Shown piece by piece: positions 14,213-61,725 of a DNA stretch of 64,000 nt. Position numbers and translations under genes: made by a program. Origin of the DNA: Norana najaformis (taxonomy: Eukaryota; Annelida; Clitellata; Crassiclitellata; Hormogastridae); the NCBI GenBank assembly GCA_964023275.1, contig OZ029914.1:50856530-50920529 (forward strand). The letters run 5' to 3'. The notes below the pieces were generated by a model. That model did not search any database. It worked only from the letters and a program-made list of their open reading frames with translations, and was not told where the DNA came from. The first letter of the stretch is position 1, and each line of letters opens with the position of its first letter.

Positions 14213-14595
14213 CGTTCGGAATTTTATATTAAAAAGTAGTTCATTACCCAGCGGACGTAATTCTCGTTGACCAAAGATTCAATCGACATCAGTTCATCTG
14301 TCCTCAGAAATTCCCCGAATTGCCCCAATGTGTGATGCGAAAGCACCTGTAATTCTGCTCCCTTGAGAATCACTTCGGAGTTTACTACGAACAGCTTGAG
14401 GCATTCGGCCGCAAGAATTTTCTCATCGACAAATAAGCGCTGTTCCAATAGACTACAAACGTTGTCCACTTTCAAGCTATCTTTAACATAATTCCACAGT
14501 CTTCCACCAGCTTGGGCAACATATATTTCCTAGCTGTATGCATCAAAGACAGTGTTGCATTACACATGACAATTACGCTTTCGTAGTAGATGAAC
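14213..14595 (-). pseudogene. Broken BTB-end/BACK segment of copy B
   Basis: Starts at a splice acceptor (TTTCAG) followed by RFIYYESVIVM and ARKYMLPKLVEDCG. A one-base loss relative to copies A and D then shifts the frame. The BACK-like continuation (VDNVCSLLEQRLFVDEK to VNENYVRWVMNYF) runs in the next frame to a stop before the nucleotidyltransferase ORF. The two parts cannot form one protein as they stand. Confidence 0.75.
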
Positions 14596-15038: not shown

Positions 15039-15400
15039 TCTGCTGCTACTACTACTACTACTACTACTACTACGAATAATAATAATATAATAATATTTAC
15101 AATAATAATAATGTGTTTTATTTTATCATATTGACAAAAGGTAAAATTTACATTAATGAGAAAAAACAATGGATGACAAAAGGAAAACGATTACATATGA
15201 GTAGTCAGATAACGGGTTTCAGCATCGTTGATGGTCCCTAATCGACGCACTATGAATTCCGAGATCCATACATACATCTCCAAGTTTGAGGATCAACGTC
15301 TTTTGCTTACCTTCATTTCATAGAATGCAGAGTATTTCTAATCAGTTAAACCACATAATAAACGGATTATACTCTTTCGGATCAATGATTATCTAGCTTA
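14600..15400. repeat. 5' flank of copy B with (ACT)n microsatellite
   Basis: 14620-14880 matches the flank upstream of copy A (2050-2180 joined to 3475-3590) and of copy D (34470-34720), sharing a TTTCATTTCGCAAACAA-like core. About 14935-15085 is a (CTA)n/(CTG)n tract followed by AAT repeats. 15240-15400 resembles 36870-37000. No gene seen. Confidence 0.6.
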
Positions 15401-16930
15401 AAACACTTCTTAATCCACACCAGTCTGGTTTCGCCACTGGTAAATGCCACTCAACTGAAAACCTTCTCATTGCTCTCAACAACAAGCTTGTTTCCGCCAT
15501 CTCTCATCGTCAGGTTTCTTGCCTCTGTCTCCTTGATATTTCAGCAGCCTTCGATACCCTTGATCACAACATCTTACTCCAAAGACTGTCAACCTGGTTT
15601 GGTTTTACTGAGACTGCTGTCCTCTGGGTACAGTCCTATCTTTTCTCCCGCTCTTTCTCGGTTAAAACATCGGAAACCTCTTCTCAATCGCGTCCTCTCA
15701 CTTGTGGAGTTCCACAAGGCTCCGTTCTTGGATTTCTTCTGTTTATCCTCTATACTACCCCTCTCAGTTCACTCACTAAAGCATTCTCAGTTGACCATCA
15801 CCTCTATGCTAATGGCACCCAATTATTCATCTCATTTTCTCCGCATTGTTTCAATGACTCTATAAATCATCTTCTTTATGTGGTTAAACAAATCTTCTCC
15901 TGGATGACATCTAATCTCTTGTGCCTGAATCCATCTAAGACGGAATTCATACTTATTGGCCTACATGACCAGCTGAAGAAAATTTCTGACCCTTCTAGCT
16001 CCCTCTCCCTGGACTCTGCCTCCATCCACACATTCAATACTAACTCTCCTGTCCGTAATTTAGGTGTAATGTTAGACCAATACCTCTCCTTTTCTGATCA
16101 TATCACCCACCTTTCCCGCTCTTGCTTCATGCATATCCGTGAACTCAGCGGAATCCGCCCTATGCTTGACTTCAAAACTACATCTACCATAGCAAACATC
16201 CATAGCCCATGCAAAACTTGATTACTGTAATTCACTTTTCCTCAATAAAGACAAAACCCAGATAAAACGCCGTCAAGCAATTCAGAATGCTCTTACTCGT
16301 GCCGTCACCAATTCTGCCAAATACCATCACATCACTCCTGTTCTGAAATCACTTCACTGCCTAAAAAACCTGAACGAATAGAGTACGAAGTCCTATCACT
16401 TACCTATAACACACCTCAATCCTCCCAACCCTTATACCTACGCCAGCTATTTACATTCCAACCACTCCGTTCAACCCGCTCCTCGTCTGCCCTAACATTT
16501 CTCGCCCTTACTGTCACTTCAGCCTTAAAATTTGGAAATTGCTACATAGCCATAGCTGCGCCACCTCTCTGGAATAAGCTCTCGCCAGAATTACGACAAT
16601 TATCTGATCCATCTTTTGAACTCGCCATCACTTCACCCCTTGCAATCTCTCCGCAGGTCTTTCACTCAAAACTGAAAACACTCCTGTTTCGCAGATCTTA
16701 TCCTGATTCCTCTTCTTCCCCTTATCTGTCTTGTAGTTCCGATTGCAAACATCATCCACCGTAGCCGTCTGACTACCTGCCTGCCTGACTCTCGGATCTT
16801 GACCTGGAACCGGACCCTTTTACCTATCGATTTTGTTTTGACTGAGCGCCGCCTGTGAATAATCTGGTTCCCGTGACTTAGCTTTCGTTGGGCGCTGTAG
16901 AAATCTTGCGATTACGATTACGATTTTCTT
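15400..16930 (+). mobile_element. L2/CR1-type LINE, 5'-truncated, with (GATTAC)n tail
   Basis: Plus-strand RT motifs: HSTENLL-like start near 15445, CLLDISAAFDTLDHNILL near 15520, LTCGVPQGSVLG near 15705, NPSKTEFILIG near 15930 and RNLGVMLDQYLSFSDHI near 16055, then PLWNKLSPELRQ near 16563. This is the pattern of the L2/CR1 group of LINEs. The tail is a GCGATTACGATTACGATT microsatellite at 16898-16926. Several frame changes and stops. Two more 3' ends of the family lie at 29270 (+) and 61330 (-). Confidence 0.85.
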
Positions 16931-21909: not shown

Positions 21910-23195
21910 AACGATACGCGTCAGATAATAATGGCATTTCGTTGAATATAAGTAATGAAACTTAAGAACTGTTGAAAGTACTTTTTATCCGAGTAAATCG
22001 CTTGAGCAAAGAAGTGTTGAAACGTTGACTAAGTAGTTACTTCGATTTCCCGAAGATCCTCATTTAAAGGCGATAAATAGCAGACAGGTGTGTAAAATCC
22101 AACCAAACATTGTCTCTGTCGAGTAAGCGTGAATTGGTGGCATCACCATTATATTTGCAAATGAAGGTCCATTCAAATCTCTCTGTAAATCTGGCTCATC
22201 GAGAATCCGTTCACACAAATGCAAAACTTCAGAATAGATACGACACTTGCAGAGATATGCAGCATGATAGCAGTCAACTGTATTGCAATGAATGTCAAAG
22301 TCCTTGCAGATTGCACTGTAAAATGATGTATTATTTTCTAAGGCACATTTTATGAGCGATTGAACCATTTTTCATCTAACAAAGTATACTGTGTTGGGCT
22401 CCTACCGTTTGTAAACATTATCGGTTCGTTGATAGACGATTACAATACAACGTGCCTTATGTTCTATTGCAGAAGAATTCTGAGCTGCTATAGTCATCAA
22501 AATTTCATCCAACGGAAATGTTGTCGCTTGGAAATCGTAATTTAGTTCAAAGGCCCTTGTTTTGGTCACTGTGGGCACCATATGCATTGAACTGCATCAT
22601 AGCTAAAGAGTAAAGGTCGCTTAGGCCTATATATAAAATCGCTGGACCAGCCATAACGCTTTCTGATTCATTGCCAAGTTTGTGACTTTCATGCGCCCTT
22701 CGTGCTCTGAACATTTGTAGGCCATTATCTTGCTTAAATTCTAAGATTTTACTATCGCAATTATAGCGCATTTCCCCCATAAATCTTAGGCACACGAAGC
22801 CTGGATAATTATGGTATGGTTCAATCACTAAGCAATCAAATGTGTCAGAGATGCCACTGACATCATGTGACAATACTGGATTTTCATCTGTAGATTCCAG
22901 ATCATACGTTTTGAACAATAACAAATCAATGTCGTCAATGCATGGATGTAGCGGATGGATAAAGAACTCAGCAGAACTGCCACATGGAATCTGATACGAC
23001 GGAAATACGTCTGTAGATACGGCTCGTAAATATATGGACTGAAAGACGTCAGTGTAAGACCTTGGAAGCATTCGACACGTACTGACGATGAATGCCTACA
23101 CAACTTCATCCATAGCTGCGTCGAAACCAGAATAAAAAATTAACCATCATCATTATGATCATCAGAATCGTTGCTGTCAGTGTGGTCCTCACGCA
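21910..23195 (-). pseudogene. BTB/BACK-Mab-21 fusion, copy C, internally deleted pseudogene
   Basis: Two recognisable parts remain. 22590-23195 encodes the nucleotidyltransferase N-lobe with GSSAEFF and DDIDLLLF, and a CLVIEPYHNYPGF segment aligned to copies B and D. The homology then jumps to the C-terminal region (FPLDEILMTI, CALENNTSFYSAICKDF, CNTVDCYHAAYLCKCR, LHLCERIL). Roughly 470 codons of C-lobe and helical region are missing between. Frame changes and stops separate the parts. Upstream it runs into the (ATGT)n tract and inserted elements. Clearly not functional, although the G-S ... D-I-D motif survives. Confidence 0.85.
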
Positions 23196-23356: not shown

Positions 23357-26300
23357 TGTTAGAGTCGGCCCACATGGAAGACCCGAATGTAAGGAGTGAC
23401 TGAAGGATGAAAAAGAACAGAATGTTTGAATGGTCGCAGGATGCGGAAAGAGCTTTTGTGGAAAATGCTTTGGGCGATCTTGCAAGAGTGTTGGAAGTCT
23501 TTAAACAAGAACAATTCGTGAACTGTTTACCTTTGGAATTGCATAGATGGATAGTAGATAAGAAACCAAAGTTTCTATCCGAAGCTGCGAAATTGGCTGA
23601 TGAATATGCTGTTTTATATCAACCGTTTCGCGTAGATACAAATGGAGGTTCCAAGGTTGAGGAAAATCGTGGCCTTGTTGGTGGAAGGAATTCGTGGAGG
23701 CAGGATTCAAATTCGGGCTCTAGTACAGTGGGAAAGAAAAAGGAATATCCAAAAGGGTTCAGTTCGCCAGTTAGATGCGTATCCTGTAGAAGGATTGGCC
23801 ATACGGTTTCAAGTTGCTTTGCATTGACAGACAGACCAGGAATGGGAAGGGCAGATAATGAAAATACTGTTCCTAAATCTTGTGGGTTGGTGCAAACGAG
23901 GTCAACAGGGTCGGGTGAGACTTTGGTTGATAGCTGTAAGAACACGATAGATGAACGGTATTTACCTTTTTGTTCTGACTTAATGTTGCTGGATGGTAAT
24001 AACGCTAGGCGCAGAGTCGTGTGTTTGCGTGATTCTGGGTCACTTCAAAGTCTTGCTAGTCGGGAATTACTTAGACCTACGGAATATAAAGACACGGGTG
24101 ACATTATACTCATTCAGGGGGTGAGTGGTACGGTAATACAGGTGCCTTTGGTTGAACTGCAGGTAGAAGGTGATAAACTGCACGGGACAATCCTTTGTGG
24201 ATTAATTCACAAATTGCCAGCGGGTATTCATGTCCTTACTGGAAATGATTTGGTTGCGCAGGTTGTTCCACAGGGTGTGGCTGTTGTTACGCGGGCTCAG
24301 ACTATGGCTAGCGGTGACCTAGATGAGAAGCGAACAGGTGTGAATGGTGTGAAAACTGTTGCTTTTGAAAAATGGGATAAGGTGTTGCTCTTGTTGCCAT
24401 TTATTGGAAAACCTTTACAGGCGAAATGTTGTGGACCGTATGTGGTCTTGGAAAGGTTAGGCGAGGTCGACTACGTGGTTAGTACACCAGATAGGCGAAA
24501 AAGTCAGAGAATTTTGCATGTCAATTTGATGAAAAAGTACATTGAAAGATCGAATTCTTCTGATATTGATAACCTTGTGAATACTGTTTTGCCAGTACAG
24601 GTCACTTGCGATGGTGAAAACTTGGTTGTTGCAAAATGTCGCTTGGATGATGTCGTTGCATTTCATTTAGAATCAATGCAGACTAATGTTTTAATGAAGC
24701 TTTTGTCTGATTTTGAGTGTGTATTTAGTGACACTCCGGGAAAGACGACTTTGGTAGAGCATCACATCGAGTTGGTTCTGGGATCTCGACCGGTGAGGCA
24801 AACGGCATACCGTATGAGTCCGGATAAGCTGAAGAGGGTGAATGAGGAAATTGATGATCTCCTCAAAGCAGATATCATTGAGGAATCTGATAGCCCCTGG
24901 GCAGCCCCTATAATTATGGTGCCTAAGGCAGATGGTTGAAGCAGATTGTGTGCGAATTTCAGGAAATTGAATGCGATGACAGTACCTGATCCTTTTCCTA
25001 TGCCTCGAGTCGAGGATCTTATAGATAAAGTGAGGAATGCGAAGTATCTATCTAAACTTGAAATGACGAAAGGCTATTGGCAAATACCTTTAGATAAGGA
25101 TTATATTCCTTTAACTGGATTTGTAACTTCACATGGGCATTTTCAGTGGAAGTTTAATAAGCCGTCTGGTTTGCGAAATGTACCTGCTACTTTTTCACAG
25201 TTAATAACGAAGCTATTTTCTGGGTTGGAAAGTTTTTGTGATGCTTATCTATATGATACAATAATTTTCAGTAAAACCTGGTGGGATTATTTAATGCATG
25301 TACGAAAGGTGTTGGTTCTGATTAAGAAGTCTGGTTTGACTTTAAATGTAAAGAAATGTGTTTGCGAATGCGGAAATCGACTTCCTGGGTCACCATATCG
25401 GCCAAGAATTCAGAAGGTGGAGGTGTTTCTGAACTTCCCCAGGCCCAGAAATAAGAAACAAGTACAATCTTTGTTAGGTCTGGCGGGGTATTATCGTCGC
25501 TATTTGCCCCATTATTCGGAAATTACTTTGCCCTGACTGCTTTATTGAAAAAGAACAGAATGTTTGAATGGTCGCATAATGCAAAAAGAGCTTTTGTGGA
25601 ACTTAAATCGAGGTTGTGTCTCGTCCAATTCTAAAGCCACCTGATTTTAATAAACGGTTTTTGATGGCTGTTGACGCTTCTCCTTTTTGTATGGGAGCCT
25701 GTCTGTTTCAGATTACTGATGAGATGGAACATACGGTGTTACCTCAGTCGTAAACTCAAGGTGCATGAGATCAACTACTCGACGGTGGAGAAAGAGGCCC
25801 ACGCTTTGGTGGTGGCCGTGATAGCATTCAGCGTTTACTTTGGTTCGGCGCCTGTCACTGTATTTACGGATCATAGTCCGTTACAGTTTATCAATACAGT
25901 GGCTAATTCTAATCAAAAGTTTCTTCGCTGGAGTCTGGAATTGCAACAGTACTCCTTGAACATTGTACATCGACCTGGACGGTTTAACCTGTTGCCCGAC
26001 CTTTTGAGTCGGCCTTCTTTAAATTGACTGTGCAAGGAACTATTGTATAGTGGCTTTGTATTTTTCTATTGTTTTGCGTTGTTTGCATATTCAAGGTATA
26101 TTCTGTATAGTTAAGTTATTGTTTGTGTAATATAGTTTTTCTTACATTTTGGTTTATGTTGTGTGGGTTTTTAATATGGTATTTTCTTTGGTCGGAAACC
26201 CAAGGATTTCCTCTCTTCGTGGTGTTGGGGGTATGTTAGAGTCGGCCCACATAGAAGACCCGGATGTAAGGAGTGACTGAATGATGAGCCGTCTCTTTGG

Positions 26301-31107: not shown

Positions 31108-34100
31108 TTAGTCTGAAACGTATTTCGCGCTCTGATGATTTTGAAGCTTTTGTTGAAGAAAGCAACGTATAATGTGCTCAAATGGAAGATTGCTTTTCAA
31201 TTTCATAAATTCAAGCATTATTTCTGAGCGTGAATGATTGCAGTCCATCAGGCATCTTAGTCTCAAATATCTCGTCAAGAAATGTCTTCCAAGAAAATAA
31301 TGGCATTTTATATTGTAAGCACGTGAAAGAGCTCTTACAAGTGAAGACTTCCGCGAGTAAATCTCTTGGGCAAAAAAATGCTGAAACGTCGACTCAGTTT
31401 CATCTTCAATTTTCAGCAATTCTTCATTTAGAGGTGACAAATAGCAAAAGAGTGTGTGGAATCCAAGCAAACTTTGTATGTCTCTGTCAAAATAACAGTG
31501 AAGCGGTGGAATCACCATTACATTTGCAAATGCAAGTTCCTTCAAGTTGTTCTCTAGACCTGGCTGATCGAAAATTCGTTCACACAAACTCAAAGCTTCA
31601 GGATATTTACGACACTTGTACAGATATGCAACACGATAGCAGTCAACTGTATTGCAATGAATGCCAAAATCCTTGCAGAGTGCATTGTAAAATGATGTCA
31701 TATTTTCTAAGGCATATTCCATGAGCGTTTGTATAAATCCGCCACATAGAAAACAACTTTCAGTCGGCGCTTCTAATTTATTAACTGGTTCGGTTCTACG
31801 ATATACGCAAACCCCACATGTCTTCTTTGGCATTTCATAAGATTTCCGTTTTGTAAGAGTCGTTAAAATTTCATCCAGCGGAAACTTTGGGGTTTGCCAA
31901 TCATCAGTTCTTCTTTCATTTGATGAAATTATTAAATATTGAGCAAATACCTCTGGTGAAAGACGCAGATCTAGAAGAAATCGTCTCTCACTGTATTGCA
32001 AATTATGTTGAATATGCCTGAAAAGCAGGTAAAATCCAATGATTCTTACAATGTCATCAATATAGAACAAACAGCCAGCATTCAGAGTTTCGATATCTTT
32101 CTTGTCGTCCTCAGGTGTTGGATTTGTGATCACTTTTGTGCAAAGTTCTATGGCAGTTTGGTATTCTGATGCCGAAATATGGAGAGCCGACAAGTAGGTC
32201 AAAGTCGCACTTGCGATGGTGTTTGAGTAAGAATCCTTAAATTCTAAAGCTGTCCTAAGAAGTCGCTTTGACAGTTGAGACACAAGTTTAAATTCTAGAT
32301 GACCATTTGATCCGGTTAAATTGTCCATCAGATCTTGAGCTAATAGGAAATATAACAGGCTACCTTCAACAACTGTTTTACCTGGTATTGGAAACTTATG
32401 GTGCTTCGATCTTACATATTTTGGTTTATGTGAAACCTGCATGGCTAAATCAACAAGCCATAGGCTGTAAAATGACATTATTGAACAATCTAAAGAATGG
32501 ACAGCAAGCAACGTAAGCATCATCGAATCAAAGATTCCAAAATACGGTTCAATGTCTCTTAGTGGCGAAATAATACTCAGAACGAAGGTACCAAAATTAA
32601 AGAATCCGTATCCGAAAAATCCATCCTTTACTGAATTATTTGCATATTGAATGTCCGAACTCAATTTTTTTGAAATACAATTGTCTATAGATTTAGGTTT
32701 ATCTGCTTCCCGGTCTTCCAATGTGCACGAGATCAACTCATTCATAGTTTTTGGACCCTTCCAATTGTCCCTGGTATTGAACACTTTATAATAACTTGGC
32801 TGCATATATTGCATTGCAAACCAGGATCTTAAATTCTTAGAATCGCAAAATTCGATCAATATCTCGGCAGTATCTTCAACATTCTTTCGTTTCATGTGTT
32901 CATGAAACAGATTTGCTCCTGGTATAAAATAATTAGGACAGTTTGTCTTTTTTAGCCATTTTGTCAGTTTCTTTAATAATTTACAGCATATTTTAACAAC
33001 AGACGTAGAATTCCACCATTCCGGTGACATCTCTTCACAACTCCATAACATCAACGTCTTTAAATGGTAAGTGCAGAGAACTTCATCCTCCTTTGGACAA
33101 TCCTTTTTGATCAATTCTCTCTTGGCGAAGAATCTGAGCATATGATAGACAATCTGCTGAATTGAAGTCCAACTCTGAAGTAAAATTACTTCCGCAACTG
33201 AAAATGACAGCCTGCATTGGTGAACATCAGCTCTGCAAGCTGGGTGTTTAGCATACACAACATGACAACCATTCTGTACCACTTCGCGGATCGTGGCAGT
33301 CGTTGGCCATCCGTAATTTCTTTGTCGAAAAGGCCAATTTCTAGCTTGTTTTGGCCACTGAGGGCAACTCATGCCAGGAACAATATCTTGTGAAAGGCTA
33401 AAATTGCCTGATATACAGATCTTTTCCGCTGGACCAGCCATGGATATTTCTATTTCTACAGAGGTGTACGGTTCAACACTCTTATCGATGGCTGCTGGAT
33501 CTGGTTTAAAAATTTCCCGGACGTTAGCAGGCGCAAATTCGAAGATCTTGAGTTCCCAGTTGTATATCATTTGTCCCAAACGTCGAAGTCGTATAAAAGC
33601 CGGATAATCATGGTATGGCTCAATCACGAAGCAATAAATTTTGTCAAAGATATCACGGACATCATATGGCATAACTGGAATTATTTCATCTGTTAAGACG
33701 AGGTTATTCGGTGTGAACTGTAAGACATCAATGTCGCCGATGCATGAATGTAGCGGCTGAATAAAGAACTCAGCAGTGCTACCACATACAATTGAACGAG
33801 AAGCGTAACGGCGGTGATAACAAACATGTTGGTCTCGAAAATTGTCAGTGTCAGACTTTGGAATTACTCGACATGTACGGACGATGAAATCCGACATCAA
33901 CTCTTCCCCTGATCTGCCAAAATCAGAATTAAAATCGGAACCATCAACATTAGGGTCATCACCATGGGGTCCGTTGCGATATTGATCTTGAATGTATTTA
34001 CCAGCAGCCGTCGTTGGGAATCTTAGTAGATCGCCACAAGATTCTCTGCTCTGCAGGTCCATAGAATTCTCAAGACAGCCCTGAATTTCGATTTGATGGT

Positions 34101-34464
34101 TTACACAGCTGATGCAATTCTCCTTGACCAAGGTTTCATTCGACATCATTTCATCTGTTTTGAGATTTGCCCCCGATGTCTGATGTGATGACATCTGTGT
34201 TTTCCTTTTCTTGAGAATCTTTTCCGAGTTTTCAGCGATTCTGAGGCATTCGCCCGTACGTTTGTTCCCATTAAAGAGAAAGCTCTGTTCCAATGAACTA
34301 CAAATGCTGTGCCCTTTTAAGTTATCTGTAAGACATTTTTCACACTCTTCCACCAGCTTCGGCAAAACGTATTTTCTGGCTGCGTACATCAAAGGCAGTG
34401 CTGTATCACTCGTGACAGTTACGCTTTCGTAGTAGATGAATCTGAAATGCGATTTCCCACACAT
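31108..34464 (-). CDS. BTB/BACK-Mab-21 nucleotidyltransferase fusion, copy D
   Basis: 1,118-residue open frame. It reads through a splice acceptor at 34441 (TTTCAG|A-TTC-ATC) that matches exon 2 of the BTB-BACK-PHR genes; the upstream in-frame ATG gives MCGKSHF. Residues 8-45 are the end of BTB (FIYYESVTVTSD, MYAARKYVLPKLVEEC); 50-155 are a worn BACK ending at RFPTTAAG. An acidic linker leads to the nucleotidyltransferase (about 185-365) with G228-S229 and D244/D246. The C-lobe (366-530) carries NWPFRQRNYGWP, RLSFSVAE, CTYHLKTLMLWSCEE and PEWWNS. Residues 560-1118 form a helical, partly TPR-like region ending in YFLGRHFLTRYLRLR and NLPFEHIIRCFLQQKL. Known Mab-21/cGLR proteins sense nucleic acids or act in development; a role here is inferred only. 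Exon 1 is missing or broken (see 42822-43390). Confidence 0.85.
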   Translation of the reverse strand: MCGKSHFRFIYYESVTVTSDTALPLMYAARKYVLPKLVEECEKCLTDNLKGHSICSSLEQSFLFNGNKRTGECLRIAENSEKILKKRKTQMSSHQTSGANLKTDEMMSNETLVKENCISCVNHQIEIQGCLENSMDLQSRESCGDLLRFPTTAAGKYIQDQYRNGPHGDDPNVDGSDFNSDFGRSGEELMSDFIVRTCRVIPKSDTDNFRDQHVCYHRRYASRSIVCGSTAEFFIQPLHSCIGDIDVLQFTPNNLVLTDEIIPVMPYDVRDIFDKIYCFVIEPYHDYPAFIRLRRLGQMIYNWELKIFEFAPANVREIFKPDPAAIDKSVEPYTSVEIEISMAGPAEKICISGNFSLSQDIVPGMSCPQWPKQARNWPFRQRNYGWPTTATIREVVQNGCHVVYAKHPACRADVHQCRLSFSVAEVILLQSWTSIQQIVYHMLRFFAKRELIKKDCPKEDEVLCTYHLKTLMLWSCEEMSPEWWNSTSVVKICCKLLKKLTKWLKKTNCPNYFIPGANLFHEHMKRKNVEDTAEILIEFCDSKNLRSWFAMQYMQPSYYKVFNTRDNWKGPKTMNELISCTLEDREADKPKSIDNCISKKLSSDIQYANNSVKDGFFGYGFFNFGTFVLSIISPLRDIEPYFGIFDSMMLTLLAVHSLDCSIMSFYSLWLVDLAMQVSHKPKYVRSKHHKFPIPGKTVVEGSLLYFLLAQDLMDNLTGSNGHLEFKLVSQLSKRLLRTALEFKDSYSNTIASATLTYLSALHISASEYQTAIELCTKVITNPTPEDDKKDIETLNAGCLFYIDDIVRIIGFYLLFRHIQHNLQYSERRFLLDLRLSPEVFAQYLIISSNERRTDDWQTPKFPLDEILTTLTKRKSYEMPKKTCGVCVYRRTEPVNKLEAPTESCFLCGGFIQTLMEYALENMTSFYNALCKDFGIHCNTVDCYRVAYLYKCRKYPEALSLCERIFDQPGLENNLKELAFANVMVIPPLHCYFDRDIQSLLGFHTLFCYLSPLNEELLKIEDETESTFQHFFAQEIYSRKSSLVRALSRAYNIKCHYFLGRHFLTRYLRLRCLMDCNHSRSEIMLEFMKLKSNLPFEHIIRCFLQQKLQNHQSAKYVSD

Positions 34465-34469
34465 TTAAA

Positions 34470-34858
34470 CTGAACTGATAATTTTATTATCGATCAGCTT
34501 CCTCAGGTCATCAACGGTCCCAACCTACCAAAACCGGACGTGTGCTTTCCGTGCTTTTTCGGACGTTGGGCCACACTTAGGGAATTCACTAACACCAGTC
34601 TTGACGGAGCCTCTCCTTTCTTTTGTTTTATTGCGCAACAATTGAAGACTTGTCTTTTTTTGCAAAACCCGCGCTTTTGTGTGAACTTTTAAATTAGCAT
34701 GATACAAGTATCTTAATTATAATTATTATTGTTAGTAGTATTTACATATGGCTTTATTGTTGCGACTATTATTTATTTTGTACTTATAATTTCATTATTT
34801 TATTATTATTATTATTGCGATGAATATTGCCTTTATTATTATCATCATTATTGTTATA
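34470..34858. repeat. 5' flank of copy D and (ATT)n microsatellite
   Basis: 34480-34720 matches the flanks upstream of copies A and B. 34720-34858 is ATT/TTA-rich low-complexity DNA. No gene. Confidence 0.6.
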
Positions 34859-34972
34859 ACATTCTGCCAGCGTTTAATCGATGGACGGCGAGGACTTCCG
34901 GTGCGGATCCGGAGGACGTCCGCCCGCACCGGAGGACCTCGTGGTCCATCGAAGAAACGCCGGCAGAATGTT
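34859..34972. repeat. Long imperfect inverted repeat (hairpin)
   Basis: Left arm begins ACATTCTGCCAGCGTTT and right arm ends AAACGCCGGCAGAATGT. Inner parts CGATGGAC/GTCCATCG, CGAGG/CCTCG and CCGGTGCGG/CCGCACCGG also pair. Arms of about 52 bases surround a short centre, with few mismatches. GC-rich, unlike its AT-rich surroundings. Confidence 0.85.
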
Positions 34973-35440
34973 CTACACTTACGCGACCGCTGACTCAAGG
35001 TAGCTTTTTCACCACTGTGCTTAAGGACAAGACCACGAGATTTGAAGGTGCACCTAGTGGACCAATTGCCAGCGTGCCAGCCAGGACGCCACCAGCTGCT
35101 CTAGTTCCACCACCACCAGCACCATCTGCTTTTGGCCAACCAAGGGAGGTGGGTCTGCTCGCACAAATTGCCGCAACTGTCGCAGGTGTTGCTGTTGGAT
35201 CAGCTGTTACTCACACAATTGGTGCTGCGATGAGAGGCAGTGGTTGACATGCAGAGCCTGCCCCTGCCGCCAGGCAGAACAGGCGTACAGTCAACCCCAA
35301 AGCACGCGGAACCAGAAAAATCTTTACCAATTTGAACTGAGAAATTTCATGGACTGTGCACAGAACCCGTAAGATATCACTCTCCACCAGGGCTTCAACG
35401 AAGGACTAAATGACTGTTGGCTCTATTTCGGCGCGCCTAT
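34930..35440 (+). pseudogene. CHCHD2: CHCHD2/CHCHD10-like pseudogene, probably a retrocopy
   Basis: One frame holds GLLAQIAATVAGVAVGSAVT, the conserved central hydrophobic segment of the mitochondrial proteins CHCHD2/CHCHD10, preceded by a Pro/Ala-rich stretch (PPAALVPPPPAPSAFG). After a stop and frame change, about 35318-35405 reads LYQFELRNFMDCAQNP then DITLHQGFNEGLNDC, the CHCH domain with its FxxCAQN signature. The second cysteine of the first CX9C pair is lost and an internal stop is present. No intron interrupts the parts, suggesting a reverse-transcribed copy. CHCHD2/10 proteins act in mitochondrial cristae and stress signalling; this copy cannot make an intact one. Confidence 0.8.
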
Positions 35441-35502
35441 GTGATGTGCCAGGATATAGCACCGCGGATTGGAGAAAACTGAAGAGCGTCTAAGCAGTGA
35501 TA

Positions 35503-35507
35503 GATGC

Positions 35508-35579
<72 letters not shown>

Positions 35580-35580
35580 T
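35503..35580. repeat. (AAT)n microsatellite
   Basis: Uninterrupted ATA/AAT triplets. Confidence 0.95.
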
Positions 35581-35849
35581 CTTGGATGGCCTTTCGTTCC
35601 AGGTGGCGGTATTTTTCCTCTGCTAGTACTTGATTTTATTCTACCATCATACTCGCACGTTTTTTCGCCGAAATTCTTGTTTTGAGTTGGTAAGAGTTTT
35701 GTCTTTCAACTCCCGCTATAGGATTTGCAGGTTGCAGTTTCTTTTTACATAATTTCTAAAGTTATACTCACACACGCCACGTTTAACTACGCACGCGGTG
35801 ACCCGCTCCGCCCCCTTGTTCACGTGTATCATGGCCATACCTTCTAGCC

Positions 35850-36880
35850 ATGTTAGTCGGACTTTGTAGCCTGCTTTTTGATCATGTCATGTCTTTATCA
35901 CAAGGTCAGTCTTGGCCACTTTCACAGACTTGCCAGAAGGCTAAAAGCATTTGTAACCACTGCCATGCCATTAGACAGATGCACCGGGGCGATGGGTTGG
36001 TCCATAAACACGGCCCTCGTGATAGTCCATGCCCGGGATCTCGTAAACCACCGTTGTCCATCCTCCGTTCAGACACTCCATGCGGGAAAGACGGGCTTGT
36101 TGCCTCGGATCAGTCTTTGGGTGCGCAGGGAGGAGGGGCGCTGCCAGACTCTTTGGGTCCTGCCCCAAAGGGAGAGCCCCCTGTCACTTCAATGGTGAGT
36201 CCTTCCTTAGCTCACTCTAACCCTGCATGCCGGCTGATAAAATACATTCCCAAGGCCGCTCGTTCCTCTTTGGGCCATCTAGTCTCAGACTATAGATCGC
36301 ATCCTGTCTGACCCGACTAACCCAGATACTTGGCATACTCTTCTGCTTTTTAACAGTTTCATCGTGGTTCCCCAGCCAGATGGGGCAGACGCCACAATGC
36401 AATCTCTATTATCAAAAAAATTGCCATTTTCACCGCCGAGATGAAGTCTAATGCCCAATTTTCGGCACCGATTGCTTTTGTCAAGCGGAATGGGCACCAC
36501 AATGAGGGACCCCAAGGTCCAGAAGCCATAGCATCAGCTGTGACCGCTAAATTGGAAGATGGTAACATCAGAGCAGCGGTGCGGATTTTGTGCTCGGAGG
36601 AACAACCAGTCCGGGCAGACCCGACATACTTTGCAGACCTTCAGGGCAAGCACCCTATTCCCTCTAAACACAGATAAGGACTTACCACCTTTAAATCAAA
36701 ACCTCTCAGCTTTTCAGGTTACAGAACAGGACATTCTGCATGCGGTCCGTTCCTCTCCAGCTGGTTCTTGGGGTGGCCCTGATGGGTTGCGACCAAAACA
36801 TATCTTGGACCTGATTACATGTAACGAAACTGGCCCTGAGGTTCTTTCCTCTATTACCTCTCTAAATAATCTATGAATTC
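35850..36880 (+). mobile_element. LINE N-terminal/pre-RT fragment, third family
   Basis: A zinc-finger-like start (CNHCHAIRQMHRGDGLVHKH, about 35953), then KYIPKAARSSLGHLVSD near 36240, DPTNPDTWHTLLLF near 36316, KLEDGNIRAAVRILCSEEQP near 36550 and SSPAGSWGGPDGLRPKHILD near 36755. The last is the start of the RT domain. Several frame changes; the catalytic RT half is absent. I recall this layout from LINEs common in marine invertebrates but do not assign a clade. Confidence 0.75.
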
Positions 36881-42110: not shown

Positions 42111-42850
42111 CCTATTAACGAAGATTATTAAAAGTGAATAATAAATTTAGTAATAATAGTAATAATAATAATAACAACAACAACGACAACAACAACAGTA
42201 ATAATTATAATAATAATAAATTAATTTATACTTCTAACTTAAATGTTTAGTTCCTGAGAGATTATTTCTACTTAGAGTAAAATAATGATAGTGATGATGA
42301 TGATGATCATAATAATAATAATAACAATAACAACAACAAAAACAACAAAAACAACAGCAATAACATTGTCTTACTTTGACTTTCGAATACTGGCAATAGG
42401 TAAAATTTGCATTAAAACAACTGATTTGAATATGTCAGCATAAATAGGCCTATCTTCGATTTGTATCTTCTCGAAACCAAAGTGGCCTATTAACGAAGTT
42501 TATTAAGAGTGAATAATAAATTTAATAATAATAATAGTAGTAATAATAATAATAACAACGACAACAACAACAGTCATAATTATAATAATAATAATCAATT
42601 AATTTATACTTCTAACTTAAATGTTTAGTTCCTGAGAGATTATTTCTACCTAGAGTAAAATAATGATAATGATGATGATCATGATCATAATAATAATAAT
42701 AATAATAACAACAACAACAAAAACAACAACAATAACATTGTCTTACTTTGACTTTCGAAAACTGGCAATAAGTAAAATTTGTATTAAAACAAGTGATTTG
42801 AATATGTCAGCATAAATAGGCCTATCATAGATTTGTATCTTCTAGTCTGG
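42111..42850. repeat. 375-bp tandem duplication rich in AAT/AAC repeats
   Basis: CCTATTAACGAAG occurs at 42111 and 42486. Each copy contains the same series of (AAT)n, (AAC)n and (GAT)n tracts and GAGAGATTATTTCTAC, and ends with the minus-strand 3' end of a BTB exon 1 (TTCGATTTGTATCTTCT near 42465 and its match near 42830). Confidence 0.85.
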
Positions 42851-43390
42851 TCTAAACCCGATACTGAATGCAGTAAAGAGGTTCGATGAAGGCTGCAAAT
42901 GGACAAGCAGTAGCGGCATGCGCTACGGAGGAGTGGAGACTGCTTAGAGAAAGAAATCATCCAAGGAAGAATTCCTGGATACCCGGGTTCGGAGAAGATC
43001 CGAGATGACATGAATCGATAACATCTAGTCGTAGACTGAATTATCGTTCGAACAGTTATTACAGGAAACAAGGGGCAGAAGCAGATGGCACAAATTGTCC
43101 GTAGTGCAGCCAATCTTCCGCTCGAGGACGGTTGAAGACAAGACAAGACAAGGCCTCTGGTCCGAACCGAAACTCAGCCGTTCCCTGCAGAACATCTCTT
43201 CAAAGAGAGGCCTTCGTGAAATTAGCATGTACTTATGAGCACGGATAACGACTGTGACGTCATCTGGTGGTCCGACTTCGAAGCAGACGTCCGTTGCTAT
43301 TTCGTTGTCCAACATGTACCGGTTGCATTCCAACACAGTCTTCCCCGACTGCCATCCAGTTTCGTCACGCGTAGCCTTGTCTTTCAGATA
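42822..43390 (-). pseudogene. Orphan BTB exon 1, disrupted by a LINE fragment
   Basis: 43175-43390 encodes a BTB N-terminal half: DETGWQSGKTVLECNRYML, DNEIATDVCFEVGPP, VIRAHKYMLISRRPLFEEMF. Homology then stops at an inserted LINE 3' end and resumes at 42822-42850, where KIxI residues of the exon end are seen with a stop. In the five intact genes this exon is continuous (266-344 bases). The nearest exon 2 downstream on this strand belongs to copy D, 8.4 kb away, so this could be copy D's former first exon. That link is inferred from order and strand only. Confidence 0.75.
42852..43155 (+). mobile_element. LINE 3' end inserted in BTB exon 1
   Basis: Plus-strand fragments: GRIPGYPGSEKIRDDMNR-like, then VITGNKGQKQMAQIVRSAAN and LPLEDG followed by a stop, as at the end of LINE ORF2 proteins, then an (ACAAG)n tail at 43136-43151. 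TCTGGTCTAAACC at the left edge and TCTGGTCCGAACC at the right edge (two mismatches) are the target-site duplication. Confidence 0.8.
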
Positions 43391-45249: not shown

Positions 45250-47749
45250 ATGGAAAAGCTAAAGCGACAGCGCAGCAAACTAAGCGAAAGTGCAAGGGAG
45301 GAAAGAGTCAAAGAAACTGACTGGAGAACCAATAAATCAGCTTTAGAGTGCAACCGTTATATGCTGGAAAACGAAATAGCAACAGATGTCTGTTTCGCAG
45401 TCGGGCCTCCAGGTGGCGCGACAGTCAAAATTCGTGCTCATGTATATATGCTGGCGTCAAGGAGCCAAGTATTTGAGACTATGTTCTTTGGCGGATTTTC
45501 AAGAAGTCACTTTGCAGCTAAGAAAGAGATTTCACCAAAATCAGAAATCAGAATCGATGATGTTGATGAGGAAACTTTCGAGGAGATGTTGAGGTAGGCT
45601 ATTACTTGTATATTTATTATTATTTTTTGCCTCGAGGTAGATATGATCCCTCAGGATTTCAGAAATGAGAAATACACGTTAAAGGAAAGTTTTAAAAAAT
45701 TACTACTACTACCGTTATTAGTATTACTACTACTTCTACTGCTATTGCTAATCTAGGTCTAATCTTATGTAATCTAATTACTTCTACTGCGCCATTATCG
45801 TATTACCCAAGGCATCAATCGATGGTCGCTTCAAGTCAAAATTGCAATCCAAATTCATAGTCCGTTGAATAAGTCAGGTAGAATTCCGATAGTTCAGCAA
45901 ACCAGAATTGTAATTGTATTTGAGATTTATAAAGCGCCTCTTAGAGGATAAACTCAACAGAGGTGCTTCCGACCCAAAAAAGTGAAATCACTGTTGAACA
46001 GTACAGTCTTCAGGCGCTGCGGAACACTGAGAGGGGAAAAGAAAGAAGCTCAAGTCGCAATCAAAATCGCAAAAGCCATCGATTGGTGGACCATCACAGA
46101 AGTCAGGTGACGGTGGCTAAGCAAGTTGAAACAGAAGAATCTTAAGTTTAAACCTGAGTGACATCACAGAACTAAAAGAACGAATTGAACTCGGCAGCGA
46201 ATTCCAAAGCCCTGCCCAGTAACAGAGAATGCTCTAGAGCTAGTATTAATACTACCAACACTACTGCTGTTGTTAATGTCACCATCACTGCCACTAATAC
46301 TACCATGTTTATTATGGTCAACGTCATTATCGTTATCATCGAAATCATTATCATGTGTAAAAGGCAGTTTGTCTGGATGTAAGAAATTATAAAGCAACCC
46401 GTTGTGTATTTTTCACTAGGTTCATATATTACGAAGATAGCACCATGGTCACGTTGAGTTCCGCTCCGTCGCTGATGTATACCGCAAAGAAATATATGCT
46501 TTCACAGCTGTATCAGCAGTGCTGCAAATGCCTTCTGGAAGGTGTAAATGTCAATAACGTTGTTTTACATCTTGAGCTCAGTCTGCTTTTTGATGTCAAA
46601 GATCTAACGGAAAAATCTCTCAAGCTCATAGCCGATAAAGCCGATGTTATTTTGACTGGAAGCATGTTGAACAGCGTCTCCCGTGCTACCCTCGAACTCA
46701 TACTTGGTCTTGATAAGATAGCCGCCGATGAATCGCTGGTCTACTATGGCTGCATCAATTGGGCGAAACATCAGCTACGAACCGAACAATCTATCGAGAA
46801 TCCGACCAATCAGCAAATCAGAAAAATCATTGGTTCTCTCATCTACCTTATTCGATTTCCAGCGATGAATCCCAAAGAGTTTGCTGAACTTGTAGCTGAG
46901 AGTGAAATTTTGACCGCAGAAGAAAAGTCGTCTATTTTCTGTTATTTCGTCACCAAGAACAAGACCGATGTACCGATGTTCAGTGTTCAGCAAAGAAACG
47001 AGTTCGCAGTCGAACGTTTTAGCCAAGTGAAAACATCGCCGCATTTGTGTTACACTGGAATTCCATTTACCTGTGAAACCAGCTTCATCTCAGACCAGGA
47101 CATCGCTTTGACGGCTGTGGCTCTGTACGCTAGTGAAGACTCCCCGTCTCCAGTCGACCTATTGGTCCTCCGAGAGTCGAAGATTGTGTCAAAGAAGTCG
47201 ACTGTTGTTCCAGTAATGGAAGATTCTACTTACTTCAAAGTTTCCCTGGAAGAACCAATCAGCATTTCTAAAAATGTGAGGCACACAATAACTGTCCATT
47301 TTCATGGAAATATTAGATATTATGGCTGTGAAAGTCAAAGCAAATGCACAGTTCAAGATGTTACATTTTCGTTCCCAGAATCATCTACAACAAGTTCAAG
47401 TGTTACAGTTCTTGGGCAGATTCCCGTGATATATTTTCAAGTTGTCAGTTCGTCGTCAAAAGCAGCCAAAAACTACTTTACAATTATGCAACACAATTGC
47501 AGACAACTTGTCAGTTCGTCCTCAAAAGCAGCCAAAAACTACTTTACAATTGTGCAACACAATTGCAGACAACTTGTCAGTTCGTCGTCAAAAGCAGCCA
47601 AAAACTACTTTACAATTATGCAACACAATTGCAGACAACATCATAAACGATATCTTGTTTTCATGACGATAATTGGTGTATTGTGTTTCCTCGTTATGAT
47701 ATTTATACAGAAAGAAACCAAAAGATATCCTGAAAAATGGATAAGGTAA
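45250..47749 (+). CDS. BTB-BACK-PHR protein E with repeats and a C-terminal membrane segment
   Basis: Exon 1 45250-45593 (ATG of MEKLKRQR; donor GTAGGC), intron 826 bases, exon 2 46420-47749 (acceptor CACTAG); 557 residues. BTB: ECNRYMLENEIATDVCF, VKIRAHVYML, then FIYYEDS across the junction. BACK: WAKHQLRTEQSIENPT, LIYLIRFPAMNPKEFAEL. PHR: from about residue 280, ending GQIPVIYF. Such proteins (BTBD3/BTBD6 class) act as Cullin-3 ubiquitin-ligase adaptors. Unlike its neighbours, it continues past PHR with three 22-residue repeats (456-521; SSSSKAAKNYFTI, QHNCRQ) and a hydrophobic helix (about 526-544; YLVFMTIIGVLCFLVMIFI) followed by a basic tail, like a tail-anchored membrane protein. The intron holds a LINE 3' relic and (AAT/ATC)-rich sequence. 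The PHR part is the most diverged of the five. Confidence 0.88.
45905..46030 (-). mobile_element. LINE 3'-end relic in the intron of gene E
   Basis: AATTGTAATTGTATTTG followed by TAAAGCGCCTCTTAGAGG matches the 3' end at 30430-30560 (TAAAGCGCCACTTAGG). Only the terminal part remains. Confidence 0.55.
47441..47638 (+). repeat. Three in-frame 66-bp tandem repeats in gene E
   Basis: Units at 47441, 47507 and 47573, each 66 bases, nearly identical. They encode [V/L]VSSSSKAAKNYFTI[M/V]QHNCRQ with three scattered nucleotide differences, which suggests recent expansion. Confidence 0.92.
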
Positions 47750-48300
47750 ATGTAAAGATATAACAATTGTTTCGCGAATCTCTACACAATCTGCAGAAGC
47801 GTGGTCTTGGTTTTTGAAGGATCAGTCAACTGCTTGCGCAAACAAATAACAGGACACCTTTTAACCGACCATTTTACGCTTGAACTTGTCGACAAAACCC
47901 GAAAGGATGGCTGGCTGAGTTGGCCACGTCATTTTATTCTGAAATACTAGATTAATAGAAGGCAGGTGTTTAATTTCTTTTAAAAATTTCCAGAAATTTA
48001 GCCATAGTACTTTTTTGAACAACTAATATTTATTTCATGATAACATTTTATAACTTTTATATTAGTTAAACTATTTTAGAAATATATATATAAATATGAA
48101 AATTATATATATATTATCAAAGACACTTCATATAATATTTATGCTTGTACATATTTGCTAAATAGTTTTAAAATATTTTGTGCAAACGAGCAAGAAAATA
48201 TTTTATATCGTACAAAGTTAGATTGTTCTTATTTTTGAAAAACTCTAAACAAAATACGACTAATCTTATTTTCCATAGGGCATGCTTTGGAACCAAAATA
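47750..48300. other. 3' flank of gene E
   Basis: AT-rich; nothing recognised apart from a TATATA tract near 48080-48115. Confidence 0.4.
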
Positions 48301-48304
48301 AATG

Positions 48305-48565
48305 TGAATGTACACGGTTTTATATAGCTAGGTATGACCTCGAGCCTGCTCATTTTGCAATGAATTTATTAATCGAGTGAGATTCTTTACCACCGCTGTC
48401 CGTTTGAATGGATGCCAAGGCATTTCAAGTCACAGTCTACGGACCGTGCTAGCTAGATTTTAATCTCTGAAATAATAGCCACTATCGGTATGCGAACCGG
48501 CGTCCTAACGCACGGAGGCGCCTTGACGTACACTTTAGCCACTGAGCTAACCAAACCAAGTTGGG
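48305..48565 (-). mobile_element. tRNA-derived SINE (family 1), best copy
   Basis: On the minus strand the head reads TTAGCTCAGTGGCTAAAG (A box) and CGGTTCGCATACCG (B box) about 35 bases later, a Pol III promoter of tRNA type. The body contains AGCACGGTCCGTAGAC, AACGGACAGCGGTGG and AATTCATTGCAAAATGAGC, shared with the other copies. Confidence 0.8.
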
Positions 48566-48597
48566 GTTAAGACAATTTGTTTTGTGGTGAGTGACTT

Positions 48598-48985
48598 CTA
48601 GTTGTTTAGGGAACGTGTTAGTGTAGTGGTATGGTCGGTGCCTCGTAACCTAAGCGGAGGGCCGTGGGTTCGAATCTGCCTCAAGCCACTGCGTAGAGAT
48701 CTTGCACAAGTTACACACCCATAATTGTCTGTGAGGAAAGTAACAGAAACCGCCTCACTCATCTCATCCCCGGGTGGCATAAAGCCAATGGACCAGTGGC
48801 GGCTCCAAGATTGCTTGCGTGGATGGGTAAGAACAGTTCCAGAGGGGCGCCACATTCTGGCAGTCCACCTTGCACGGGTCTGGTCTGAGGGGAGCCGGGA
48901 TATAACCGAGAGGGGCGCGGTGGAACCGCCCCCACGCCTATAGCTAAAGCCGCCACTGCAATGGACCTACCTTCGGGCAGAGAAC

Positions 48986-49036
<51 letters not shown>
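48598..49036 (+). mobile_element. tRNA-derived SINE (family 2) with (ATC)n tail
   Basis: A box TTAGTGTAGTGGTATGG near 48618 and B box GGGTTCGAATCTGCC near 48667. The body runs for about 320 bases and ends GCAGAGAACTCATCATC at a long pure (ATC)n tract (48987-49034). Only one copy in the window. Confidence 0.75.
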
Positions 49037-49559
49037 GTTGTTTAAATTGCAATTTAGAATGTAGTTATTGCTTTTAATCAAAACAAATTCCTTTCATTTC
49101 ATGATTATTTAAACAAAAATATGTTCAGGTTTGTAGATTTTTATGTATTCATTCTGTACTTGTACTTAATGGGCGGGAGTGAAATACTGTATGCTAATTC
49201 GGTTGAAGTCCATAGGTTTTATTGTGTCAGTGTTCACATTAATGTGGGCGGTACCATATGCAATATGGAAAGCTGTTTCACAGCATAAATGCTATATTAT
49301 TTTTGCTTTATTTCTGTGTTTTGCACGACGTCGCGTGCTTGTAAAATTTAATTATAGAAATTCAATCATTTATTCGTAACTTCTAACCAACTGTAATTTG
49401 CAAAAACTGAAATCCATGCTATCTGCAATCCCCAATATGGAGTTAAGCTTAAACAGCAACTAAAGAAAGTGTAGATAAGAGAGATTTACAGTACATAGGC
49501 CTACATAGATACGCTAAAGCCAAAGTATGGGGCCTGGATCGTCTGCGAGAACTGTAAAT

Positions 49560-49800
49560 GTAAATGTAAACGTTTCTGTGTAGCAAATGTATGGCCTCGA
49601 CCATACTAATTTTTCAATGAATTTATCGGGTGAGATCCCTTACCACCGCTGCCCGTTTGAATGGGTATCACACCATTTAAGGTCCCTTGTTCGGACCGTG
49701 CTAGACCGAGATTCAAATCGTGGCGATTGGTATGAGAAGCGGCATCCTCACGCACCGAGGCGCCTTGACGTACGCTTCAACCAATGTGACTAACCAGGAC
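49560..49800 (-). mobile_element. tRNA-derived SINE (family 1) with TTTACA-type tail
   Basis: GGTGAGATCCCTTACCACCG and CATCCTCACGCACCGAGG match the other copies. The 3' tail on the minus strand is TTTACATTTACATTTAC (plus strand 49552-49569), giving the family's tail unit. Confidence 0.75.
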
Positions 49801-50587
49801 AGCAATCTATAATAAAGAAAATGAAAATGAATTACACTATTCTATGTGCTAAGTATGTGCTCTCCTTTGGTTTATAAACACTTGATTCCTTTTAAACATG
49901 AAACACTCGCTTTCCTGAATTTCCTTTTTAATCATTGTACGCGAACAGAACTCTAAAACTGCAACTTGCGTCAGAGCCTATAATATTTTGAGGATTCAAA
50001 AACATTTTGGCACTCTTGGTCTATCATACTTTCTGAGCGCGCAATACGTTTGCACAGAGTTAAGAGCTCAGTCTAAATAAACAGAGCATGAAGTACTTAA
50101 GCGATGAACCCGTCATGGTTATCAATAGCAAGACGTCCTTAAGTAAACAAAAGGATTAACGCAATAAAAGACCCATGTACAGTAGCTTGACAAAGCTTTC
50201 TGCATTATAAAAACTCAACGTATGTTCTTTCGGAGTTGCTCGGATTTAAAGTTAAAAGAAGTTTAGCAACGTATCCATTAAATATTAAGTTCTGTATTCG
50301 CTATTCAGCAAGCAAGTGTTAAAAGTTTTTTGTTCAGGAAATGCCGCGAATCTATGAATAATTTCATGTCGAAAATAGACCTACGAAAGAGGAAGCTAGA
50401 ACCATGAGGCTCTATATCTTCATGCTCATACTATTCGTCATTCATCACAAGTATGGCCATCATCATCACCACATCATCATCACCACCACCACCATCATCA
50501 TCATCACCAGCAACGTTATAATTATAATTTTCTTCATCTAAATCGTGGTTGTATTCGCCAGCGTGTTCTCATTTGTGATTTCAGATC
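49800..50587. other. Intergenic, upstream of gene F
   Basis: 49810-50080 resembles 8220-8460 (a shared block beyond the SINE). 50455-50515 is an (ATC/ACC)n tract. Possible promoter region of gene F, with no distinct signal. Confidence 0.4.
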
Positions 50588-52539: not shown

Positions 52540-53245
52540 TGCATATGTTACTCGACATGTCTTGTCATAATTTTGAAACAGCAAGACAGTAGACCGCGCA
52601 TTATAAAAAACAACTTTGCTAGTTGTTTCATATGCATGCAACGTTTGCAGTAAATGCGGTTCGATGATGCTACCGCGATTGGTGTTGTAGTGACAGTTAG
52701 GTTGCAATTTTTAAAGGAAAGGCAAATTTTCTCTACTGTTTCTGACAATTCACTTTTTAAGATATTTGTGTCTTATTCATTTCGTTTCACTTTCAGTAGT
52801 TTTCTCGCTGCTTCCAACATCAAATCGCATCCTGATGTTGGTGACCAGCTATTAGAAGTAAGTTATATCGATGAAATGAGTGTGAAACAGAAGATCATAC
52901 TGTTCCAAATCACGAATGCATCATAAACATTAGCAATAATCTTCAGTTTTGATGTTCTTAGGACATAAATTGGAAACTGGTTGACAACTGTCAACCTCAA
53001 ATTACGATTTTGAAGGCAGTTTTGGTTCTTGTAATGAATGATGCACTTAAAAAAGAAACAGTACCAAAATTACAAAATACCAAGATGCATTTCTCTTTTT
53101 GAAGTAGCTACTTGTTACTCACGAACGATTCATTGGTAAAGCTTTATATATAAATGGGCACTTTGTAGTTCTTAACTTTTTCGAAGACAAGAATAAATTT
53201 CTTCAAAGCTTAGCCTTAACTTCGCCCCGGATATCGCCTGAGTCC
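52540..53245. other. Space between convergent genes F and G
   Basis: No gene recognised; the short ORF at 52654-52926 has no known features. Holds the 3' ends of both transcripts. Confidence 0.4.
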
Positions 53246-58765: not shown

Positions 58766-58796
58766 TGTCAATATCAAGCTATAAGCAGAAAAATCA

Positions 58797-58828
58797 ATTA
58801 AATCAACGAAATAGCAACGGATGTCTGA
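58797..58828 (+). pseudogene. Tiny relic of a BTB exon 1
   Basis: AACGAAATAGCAACGGATGTCTG is identical in type to the NEIATDVC codons of the BTB first exons, on the strand opposite to gene H and about 30 bases beyond its start. A TGA follows where the Cys codon should be. Nothing else of the exon remains. Confidence 0.6.
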
Positions 58829-60234: not shown

Positions 60235-60375
60235 CCGTACCTTAACTGGCTTGGCGCCAATTCAACAGAACAGCGGTGGTGATGATCTCACCCGATAAAT
60301 TCATTATAAATGCGCTGGGTCGAAGTCATACGGTCGCTATATAAAACCGTATACATTTATATTTATTTACATTGT
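60235..60375 (+). mobile_element. tRNA-derived SINE (family 1), 3' half
   Basis: ACAGCGGTGG, ATCTCACCCGATAAATTCAT and the TATATAAAACCGTATACATT end match the minus-strand copies at 48305 and 49560 in reverse orientation; tail ATTTATATTTATTTACATT. Confidence 0.7.
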
Positions 60376-61545: not shown

Positions 61546-61725
61546 ATAGGCTGTCTCTCTGTCTCTGTGAAACGACCTTCTTGGTATTGACCTTAGTATG
61601 GCATTGTTTTCGGACGCCGTCGTTTGGTGCCTTGTACATTTGACACCGGCGCTGTGCCAGTTGCTAATCAATAATAATACTTTCATTTGGTAGAACTGCA
61701 CACTGTACATGTAGGATTGCCAGCA

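Follow-up and report, generated by a model that had tools for sequence, protein, structure and literature searches.

A putative BTB head on cGAS-like Mab-21 genes of Norana najaformis, recurrent in one tandem array, with a damaged member and its intact sister

We analysed a 64-kb stretch of contig C2 (OZ029914.1) of the annelid Norana najaformis (C2:50856530-50920529, hereafter the window; the genome spans 608 Mb in 17 contigs), in which a Mab-21 unit, u11, is joined in one open frame to the remains of a BTB and a BACK domain. The 274 kb of C2:50656530-50930529 and pieces around it were also read. Along this array every Mab-21 unit lies on the minus strand, and the units alternate with BTB-BACK-PHR genes on both strands; at least 15 units lie at C2:50.6-50.96 Mb, a lower bound because the genome search scored 41 of 398 candidates, and a count that excludes a lone C-terminal fragment at C2:50743915. 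As the earlier note on this DNA had described, u11 is a single stop-free minus-strand frame at 31108-34464, with 1,118 codons. Its parts, the remnants of the exon that belongs upstream of it, and its closest sister are as follows (window positions unless C2 is given).

31111-34464, minus strand: joined open frame of u11 (BTB tail, BACK-derived part, linker, Mab-21 nucleotidyltransferase, C-terminal region), 1,118 codons
34442-34443, minus strand: splice acceptor AG (TTTCAG/A or TTTCAG/G), kept in u7, u8, u9 and u11; the true exon 2 of u11 would begin at 34441
34321-34443, minus strand: BTB tail, residues 8-48, positions 69-109 of the 110 of PF00651 (Pfam)
34000-34314, minus strand: BACK-derived part, residues 51-155, recognised by homology to BACK in the neighbouring BTB-BACK-PHR genes and not by Pfam
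33910-33999, minus strand: linker, residues 156-185, with GGG directly after it at the site of the ancestral Mab-21 start codon
33175-33909, minus strand: Mab-21 nucleotidyltransferase core, residues 186-430, with GS at 228-229, D244, D246 and D360
32785-33174, minus strand: Mab-21_C domain, residues 431-560, the most constrained part
31111-32784, minus strand: C-terminal region, residues 561-1118, helical in a very-low-confidence model
43190-43378, minus strand: first half of u11 BTB exon 1, with AAG at 43378-43376 where siblings have the start codon
42416-42472, minus strand: displaced remnant of the second half of u11 exon 1, without a splice donor (E=0.043 alone, weak; recognised by place and sequence)
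42788-42841, minus strand: second copy of the exon 1 remnant (E=0.51 alone), in a ~370-bp segment repeated at ~91% identity
C2:50826171-50835959, minus strand, outside the window: u7, a complete BTB-BACK-Mab-21 gene by its start, exon 1, splice sites and open frame

Pfam recognizes the Mab-21 half of u11 above its cut-offs, at E=4.6e-16 for Mab-21_C and E=2.4e-10 for Mab-21 (PF03281), the latter over profile positions 100-196 of 197 only. The BTB end that had been read at the start of the frame is present as a tail comprising the last ~37% of the profile; it falls under the Pfam cut-off in the full frame (E=0.0034), scores 20.9 against a cut-off of 20.5 when a 146-aa piece is searched alone, and the rest of the domain would be due from a broken upstream exon. 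The BACK call stands by homology and not by profile, since residues ~51-155 align with the BACK of the neighbouring gene P3 (E=1.9e-37; 48% identity across 170 aligned columns, BTB tail included), while Pfam returned no BACK in u11 at E<=10 or at E<=1. The fused units contain no match to PHR, the last domain of the neighbouring genes, at E<=1e-4, and Pfam did not find it in u7 or u11. Beyond the Mab-21 part, no leftover of PHR that would mark an insertion into a PHR exon was found at E<=1e-4. A TPR identity of the C-terminal region is unproven, with a TPR_2 match in one of 11 relatives at E=0.09.

The fused layout is real and recurrent: u8 shares it, and u7, about 61 kb from u11 start to start, is a third copy. 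A chance open frame is ruled out by the sequence relatives, the profile matches and this recurrence in u8 and u7. Repeat-rich tandem arrays are generally prone to misjoining, and the frame could in principle be an assembly artefact that brought unrelated pieces together. We give this next to no credence and reject it, because the same junction, linker and acceptor occur in diverged units of one clade (u7, 72% identical; u8, 66-70% identical) and other units retain this BACK as remnants that are out of frame.

The exon structure of the neighbours shows what u11 has lost. In the local BTB-BACK-PHR genes, exon 1 encodes most of the BTB and exon 2 the BTB tail, BACK and PHR, across a phase 2 junction (the ends and phase of BTB first exons were judged by eye). 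The u11 frame corresponds to such an exon 2, and its acceptor, TTTCAG/A, is intact. Its exon 1, located 8.7 kb upstream and 91% identical in nucleotides to that of u7 over 230 bases, has three defects: the start codon is replaced by AAG, the sequence is rearranged after ...FEEMFC, and the second half is displaced, duplicated and without a donor. Thirteen of the 14 BTB first exons read end at GT in the same splice phase, the exception being that of u11. Owing to this damage, u11 would not obtain a complete BTB from ordinary splicing of its own exons, and the Cullin-3 coupling or BTB oligomerisation once proposed for it does not hold, for want of a usable BTB N-terminal exon of its own. It is quite possible that u11 is transcribed from, or spliced at, a point downstream of the BACK part, given the broken upstream exon and a new in-frame ATG at residue 190, four codons beyond the ancestral Mab-21 start site.

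In u7, by contrast with this damaged sibling, exon 1 is intact. It occupies C2:50835682-50835959, and the fused second exon starts at C2:50829516. The gene reads from a MAERCETGWQ... start through a donor (AG/GTACGT), a 6.2-kb intron and an acceptor (TTTCAG/A) in matching phase into 1,115 further codons, for a total of 1,208 codons and a predicted product of 1,208 aa, in which Pfam finds a BTB at E=1.6e-19 over profile positions 5-109 and no BACK at E<=1. Other units hold parts of this arrangement. In u1, exon 1 is open with a start and a donor, and exon 2 opens with what reads as low-complexity sequence; u5 retains exon 1 and BACK next to a broken Mab-21 part; no BTB first exon was found in the ~11 kb upstream of u8 or the ~16 kb upstream of u9.

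A tree of 14 rows, built from units of this one genome with u5, u10 and two eastern units (50.950 and 50.958 Mb) left out, places u0b, u1, u2, u3, u6, u7, u8, u9 and u11 in one clade with support of 100/100. Inside it, u7 pairs with u11 (98/98), u8 stands beside them (100/100), and several other forks are unresolved. BACK occurs in or out of frame in seven of these nine units, and a single clade with so many BACK carriers suggests one fusion followed by copying and decay. Relatives fill two further arrays, at C2:47.18-47.62 and C1:1.6-3.6 Mb, where the listed matches begin no earlier than query residue 184 and include no BTB or BACK; the frames there are of ~940-990 aa, with starts read in five loci. 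We infer that the fusion arose by joining at the DNA level and not by retroposition.

Two side observations concern other Mab-21 units. In all nine BTB-free units read across three arrays (five loci of the two other arrays, u4, u0a and the units at 50.950 and 50.958 Mb), the ATG is preceded at a distance of one or two bases by an acceptor-like AG, which suggests an upstream exon in these units. Other long Mab-21 frames occur at C2:36255863 (1,134 aa), 36318472 (1,156 aa) and 5179988 (1,123 aa); an N-terminal fusion was looked for by eye in one of them, L045 (C2:36.32 Mb), and no BTB was seen in the 888 codons read, which begin after a stop.

In the enzyme half, the G-S ... D-I-D signature that the earlier note had called intact is indeed so: G228, S229, D244 and D246 are invariant in 11 of 11 aligned relatives from three arrays, as is D360, the third catalytic acid that the note had wanted checked. 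The D-x-D and third D are also present in u1, u3 and u7. The nearest sequence relatives of u11 with structures in the PDB are cGAS-like receptor 1 (8gjy; E=1e-18 by single sequence, 1.4e-27 by profile), MB21D2 (7lt1, E=9.7e-13), another cGAS-like receptor 1 (8gjw), MAB21L1 (5eog, E=3.5e-7) and cGAS. Both 8gjy and MB21D2 have an Asp at the aligned position of the third acid. The Pfam and PDB matches start at residue 336-339 and stop short of the GS and D-x-D part, so the N-lobe is read from its motifs. To our knowledge, MB21D2 and MAB21L1 carry neither a BTB nor a C-terminal extension of ~560 aa, and we take them to belong to other branches. In the u7/u8/u11 trio, the ratio of nonsynonymous to synonymous substitution rates (omega) is 0.88-1.12 for the nucleotidyltransferase, 0.37-0.74 for Mab-21_C and 0.67-0.77 for the C-terminus, a pattern that may reflect rapid evolution about an unchanging active site, such as immune genes show.

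All 11 relatives match PF03281 at E<=1, and u11 carries the Pfam Mab21 domain that, along with clade, defines the superfamily of cGAS-like receptors (cGLRs) in PMC10732462. High-confidence cGLRs, in the preprint PMC9980059, have h[QT]GS, then [DE]h[DE]h after X8-20, h[DE]h after X50-90, and AlphaFold2 structural homology. Here GS is present with C before it in 13 of 14 rows and S in one; D-x-D (DIDV in u11) follows after 14 residues in 14 of 14, with T or S, which are not hydrophobic, after the second D in some; and the third acid, preceded by Q in u11, comes after 102-114 residues instead of 50-90 in 12 of 14 rows, two being mis-anchored. Since two motif details are missed, we file the family in the Mab-21/cGLR superfamily by its Pfam domain, and not as a high-confidence or catalytically confirmed cGLR.

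The fused units resemble the cGLRs of that preprint, TPR and ankyrin forms included, in Mab-21 family membership, GS, D-x-D, third acid, tandem expansion and the presence of STING in the same genome. They differ by an N-terminal BTB/BACK, by Cys for Gln or Thr before GS and by the longer spacing to the third acid. STING ligand-binding-domain exons give ten tandem matches at C3:48636082-48746202 and two at C17:6049508-6050814. A haemocyanin beta-sandwich, sought as a molluscan marker, gave no hit, which does not demonstrate that it is missing. With 150 of 264 candidates scored, the Mab-21_C matches of the genome number at least 150, and in the size of this family it resembles some bivalves, for which the same preprint gives very large cGLR numbers (PMC9980059). 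Animal cGLRs are there 87% standalone; the fusions named are with TPR, ankyrin and death domains and between several cGLRs, and rarer architectures (under 0.5%) are grouped as 'Other', so that Table S2 could include a BTB fusion (PMC9980059). A search of open-licence literature found no paper on a BTB-Mab-21 fusion.

The evident donors of the other half are the BTB-BACK-PHR neighbours, presumably BTBD1/2/3/6-like, with which the fused units share exon structure, phase-2 junction and BTB plus BACK-derived sequence. They differ from these neighbours in having Mab-21 and a long C-terminal region in the place of PHR, and a degenerate BACK. As a member of the BTB-BACK-PHR family, u11 would fall short on each domain: it retains the BTB tail with a broken exon 1 (u7 has the complete BTB), and neither a recognised BACK nor PHR.

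We propose, with moderate confidence in the account as a whole, that a Mab-21/cGAS-like gene of the kind filling the two other arrays was joined once, at the DNA level, to exon 2 of a BTB-BACK-PHR gene, where it would have taken the place of the PHR domain, and that the chimera then multiplied in tandem. Because GS, D-x-D and the third D are kept, the products most likely synthesise nucleotide second messengers and act upstream of the STING proteins of this genome. In u7, the whole BTB at the N-terminus would most likely dimerise or cluster the protein, with the BACK part now perhaps little more than a fast-changing spacer. As its first exon is broken, u11 is a 5'-damaged member, and its product, if any, would probably be a Mab-21 protein without a BTB, translated from an internal start codon. 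A BTB head on a putative cGAS-like enzyme appears to be a real, recurrent variant, damaged in u11 and intact in its sister u7.

Like the two motif deviations above, several observations weigh against this proposal. Among the units read, u7 alone has the complete layout. The predicted structure, made from an alignment of four window sequences only, has a mean predicted local distance difference test score (pLDDT) of 30.6 and a predicted template-modelling score (pTM) of 0.23. For the BACK part, omega among u7, u8 and u11 is 0.94-1.03 (intervals about 0.6-2.0) and 1.7-1.8 for u1 against u7 and u11; an earlier unweighted count gave about 0.74 for u8-u11. Changes in the BTB tail and BACK are spread evenly over codon positions, and with omega near 1, amino-acid selection on the BACK part is not shown. 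Set against the flanking intron, whose Jukes-Cantor divergence is 0.165-0.19 for u7-u11 and 0.43-0.57 for pairs with u8 (alignment partly doubtful), the nonsynonymous divergence of BACK is about equal for u7-u11 (0.16) and about half to two thirds as large for the u8 pairs (0.29, 0.25); the lower value in the latter makes some constraint possible. Exon 1 of u7 gives omega 0.23-0.40 against five PHR genes, where long PHR branches may dominate, and 0.49, 0.63 and 0.60 against u5, u1 and the u11 half-exon, with intervals past 1. As a separate observation, the linker (33910-33999, 30 codons) has an omega of 8.5 for u7-u11 (interval 3.3-9.7) and 0.84-0.85 for pairs with u8, hinting at diversification or misalignment.

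These data bear on an alternative that we regard as possible and rather doubtful: the BTB/BACK stretch may be a fossil, left when a Mab-21 gene landed beside a BTB-BACK exon, so that the descendants start at their own internal ATG and the upstream frame is an accidental 5' leader or intron in all units, u7 included. The neutral-looking BACK would fit, as would its frameshifts in u9, u3, u0b and u5, the failure to detect a first exon for u8 in the interval searched, and the ancestral start of (A)MEDSVSAFIV, kept in u8 and in all nine readable array units without in-frame BACK. However, u7 retains a complete BTB exon, a start codon and matching splice sites. The ancestral Mab-21 start is moreover lost in three of the four in-frame units (ATC in u1, AAC in u7, GGG in u11) against none of the nine others (4/286 = 0.014 by hand), for units that are not independent, that exclude u5 and u10 as broken, and that include u11 with its replacement ATG nearby. 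Stop-free retention is also improbable under neutrality. The BTB tail and BACK are open in u11, in u7 (155 codons) and in u8 (18 fewer, in frame), and a neutral simulation of substitutions only, with branch lengths set by hand, yields such a trio in 36 of 20,000 runs (lengths based on synonymous divergence) or 2 of 20,000 (flank-based); that the three units were chosen for being open belongs among the points against our proposal. Our reading is that the u7 fusion would be translated and that its BACK part is not conserved as a BACK domain.

Decay of the fusion is visible across the array. Four of the 15 units carry BACK in the reading frame of Mab-21 (u1 in part, u7, u8 and u11), four have it out of frame (u0b, u3, u5 and u9), and in seven it was not found (u0a, u2, u4, u6, u10, itself a fragment, and the two eastern units at 50.950 and 50.958 Mb; flanks of u0a and of the last two were read in part). 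The fusion thus decays readily, which again counts against our proposal. The remaining units and genes of the window are these.

1-2103, minus strand: u8, second intact fused frame, 1,152 codons, running on to C2:50855177
11276-14278, minus strand: u9, intact Mab-21 frame, 1,000 codons
14245-14639, minus strand: decayed BTB tail/BACK of u9, in two other frames
21916-23140, minus strand: u10, decayed Mab-21 fragments
45313-47749, plus strand: P1, BTB-BACK-PHR; exon 1 45313-45594, exon 2 46361-47749
50603-52433, plus strand: P2, BTB-BACK-PHR
53246-55073, minus strand: P3, BTB-BACK-PHR, nearest to the fused BACK among P1-P5; BACK E=4.1e-8, PHR E=4.1e-20 (Pfam)
56795-58750, minus strand: P4, BTB-BACK-PHR
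61738-63460, plus strand: P5, BTB-BACK-PHR

In the BTB-BACK-PHR tandem array (45313-63460 of the window and C2:50.657-50.930 Mb), some genes are open throughout and others frameshifted. The 3' end of P1 exon 2 (46361-47749) encodes three near-identical ~22-aa repeats (QLVSSSSKAAKNYFTI..QHNCR) and then a hydrophobic stretch, neither of which occurs in the other four PHR exons of the window. Mobile-element-like coding pieces, reverse-transcriptase-like and others by eye, lie between and beside the units at 2248-2901, 15397-16221, 23404-25536 and ~34723-36876, the last of these upstream of the u11 frame.

In established adaptors, BACK and its 3-box contribute to the binding of Cullin-3. A BTB and BACK that recruit Cullin-3, with a nucleotidyltransferase that binds nucleic acid or a danger signal, could accordingly lead to ubiquitination of the ligand or a partner. 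The full BTB of u7 (E=1.6e-19) is in keeping with this, as is the BTBD6 BTB (2vkp), a weak hit among the PDB matches of the u11 frame at E=0.019. However, BACK is degenerate: Pfam gives it E=4.1e-8 in P3 and does not recognise it at E<=1 in either u7 or u11, and its omega is near 1. In addition, u11 has no usable BTB exon of its own. We therefore consider a full Cullin-3 adaptor very unlikely and such coupling unsupported for the family. For u7, BTB-driven self-association of a cGAS-like enzyme would be the better guess.

A further scenario, unlikely in our estimation, treats the array as a set of interchangeable parts, because 13 of 14 first exons share a splice phase and the second exons end in either PHR or a cGAS-like enzyme. 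Read-through splicing could then give one BTB head different tails, the BTB in u7 could cluster the cyclase without nucleic acid or set the ligand dose at which it fires, and units with a broken exon, such as u11, could borrow the first exon of P3 ~20 kb upstream. In that case N. najaformis would possess a cGAS-like sensor with an oligomeric state fixed by a built-in BTB.

If our proposal of a BTB-headed enzyme is right, a branch with an N-terminal BTB would show that cGAS-like receptors can acquire a dedicated self-association module. The array presents this arrangement in complete, headless, frameshifted and BTB-free stages, so that the effect of the BTB on the cyclase would be comparable between near siblings.

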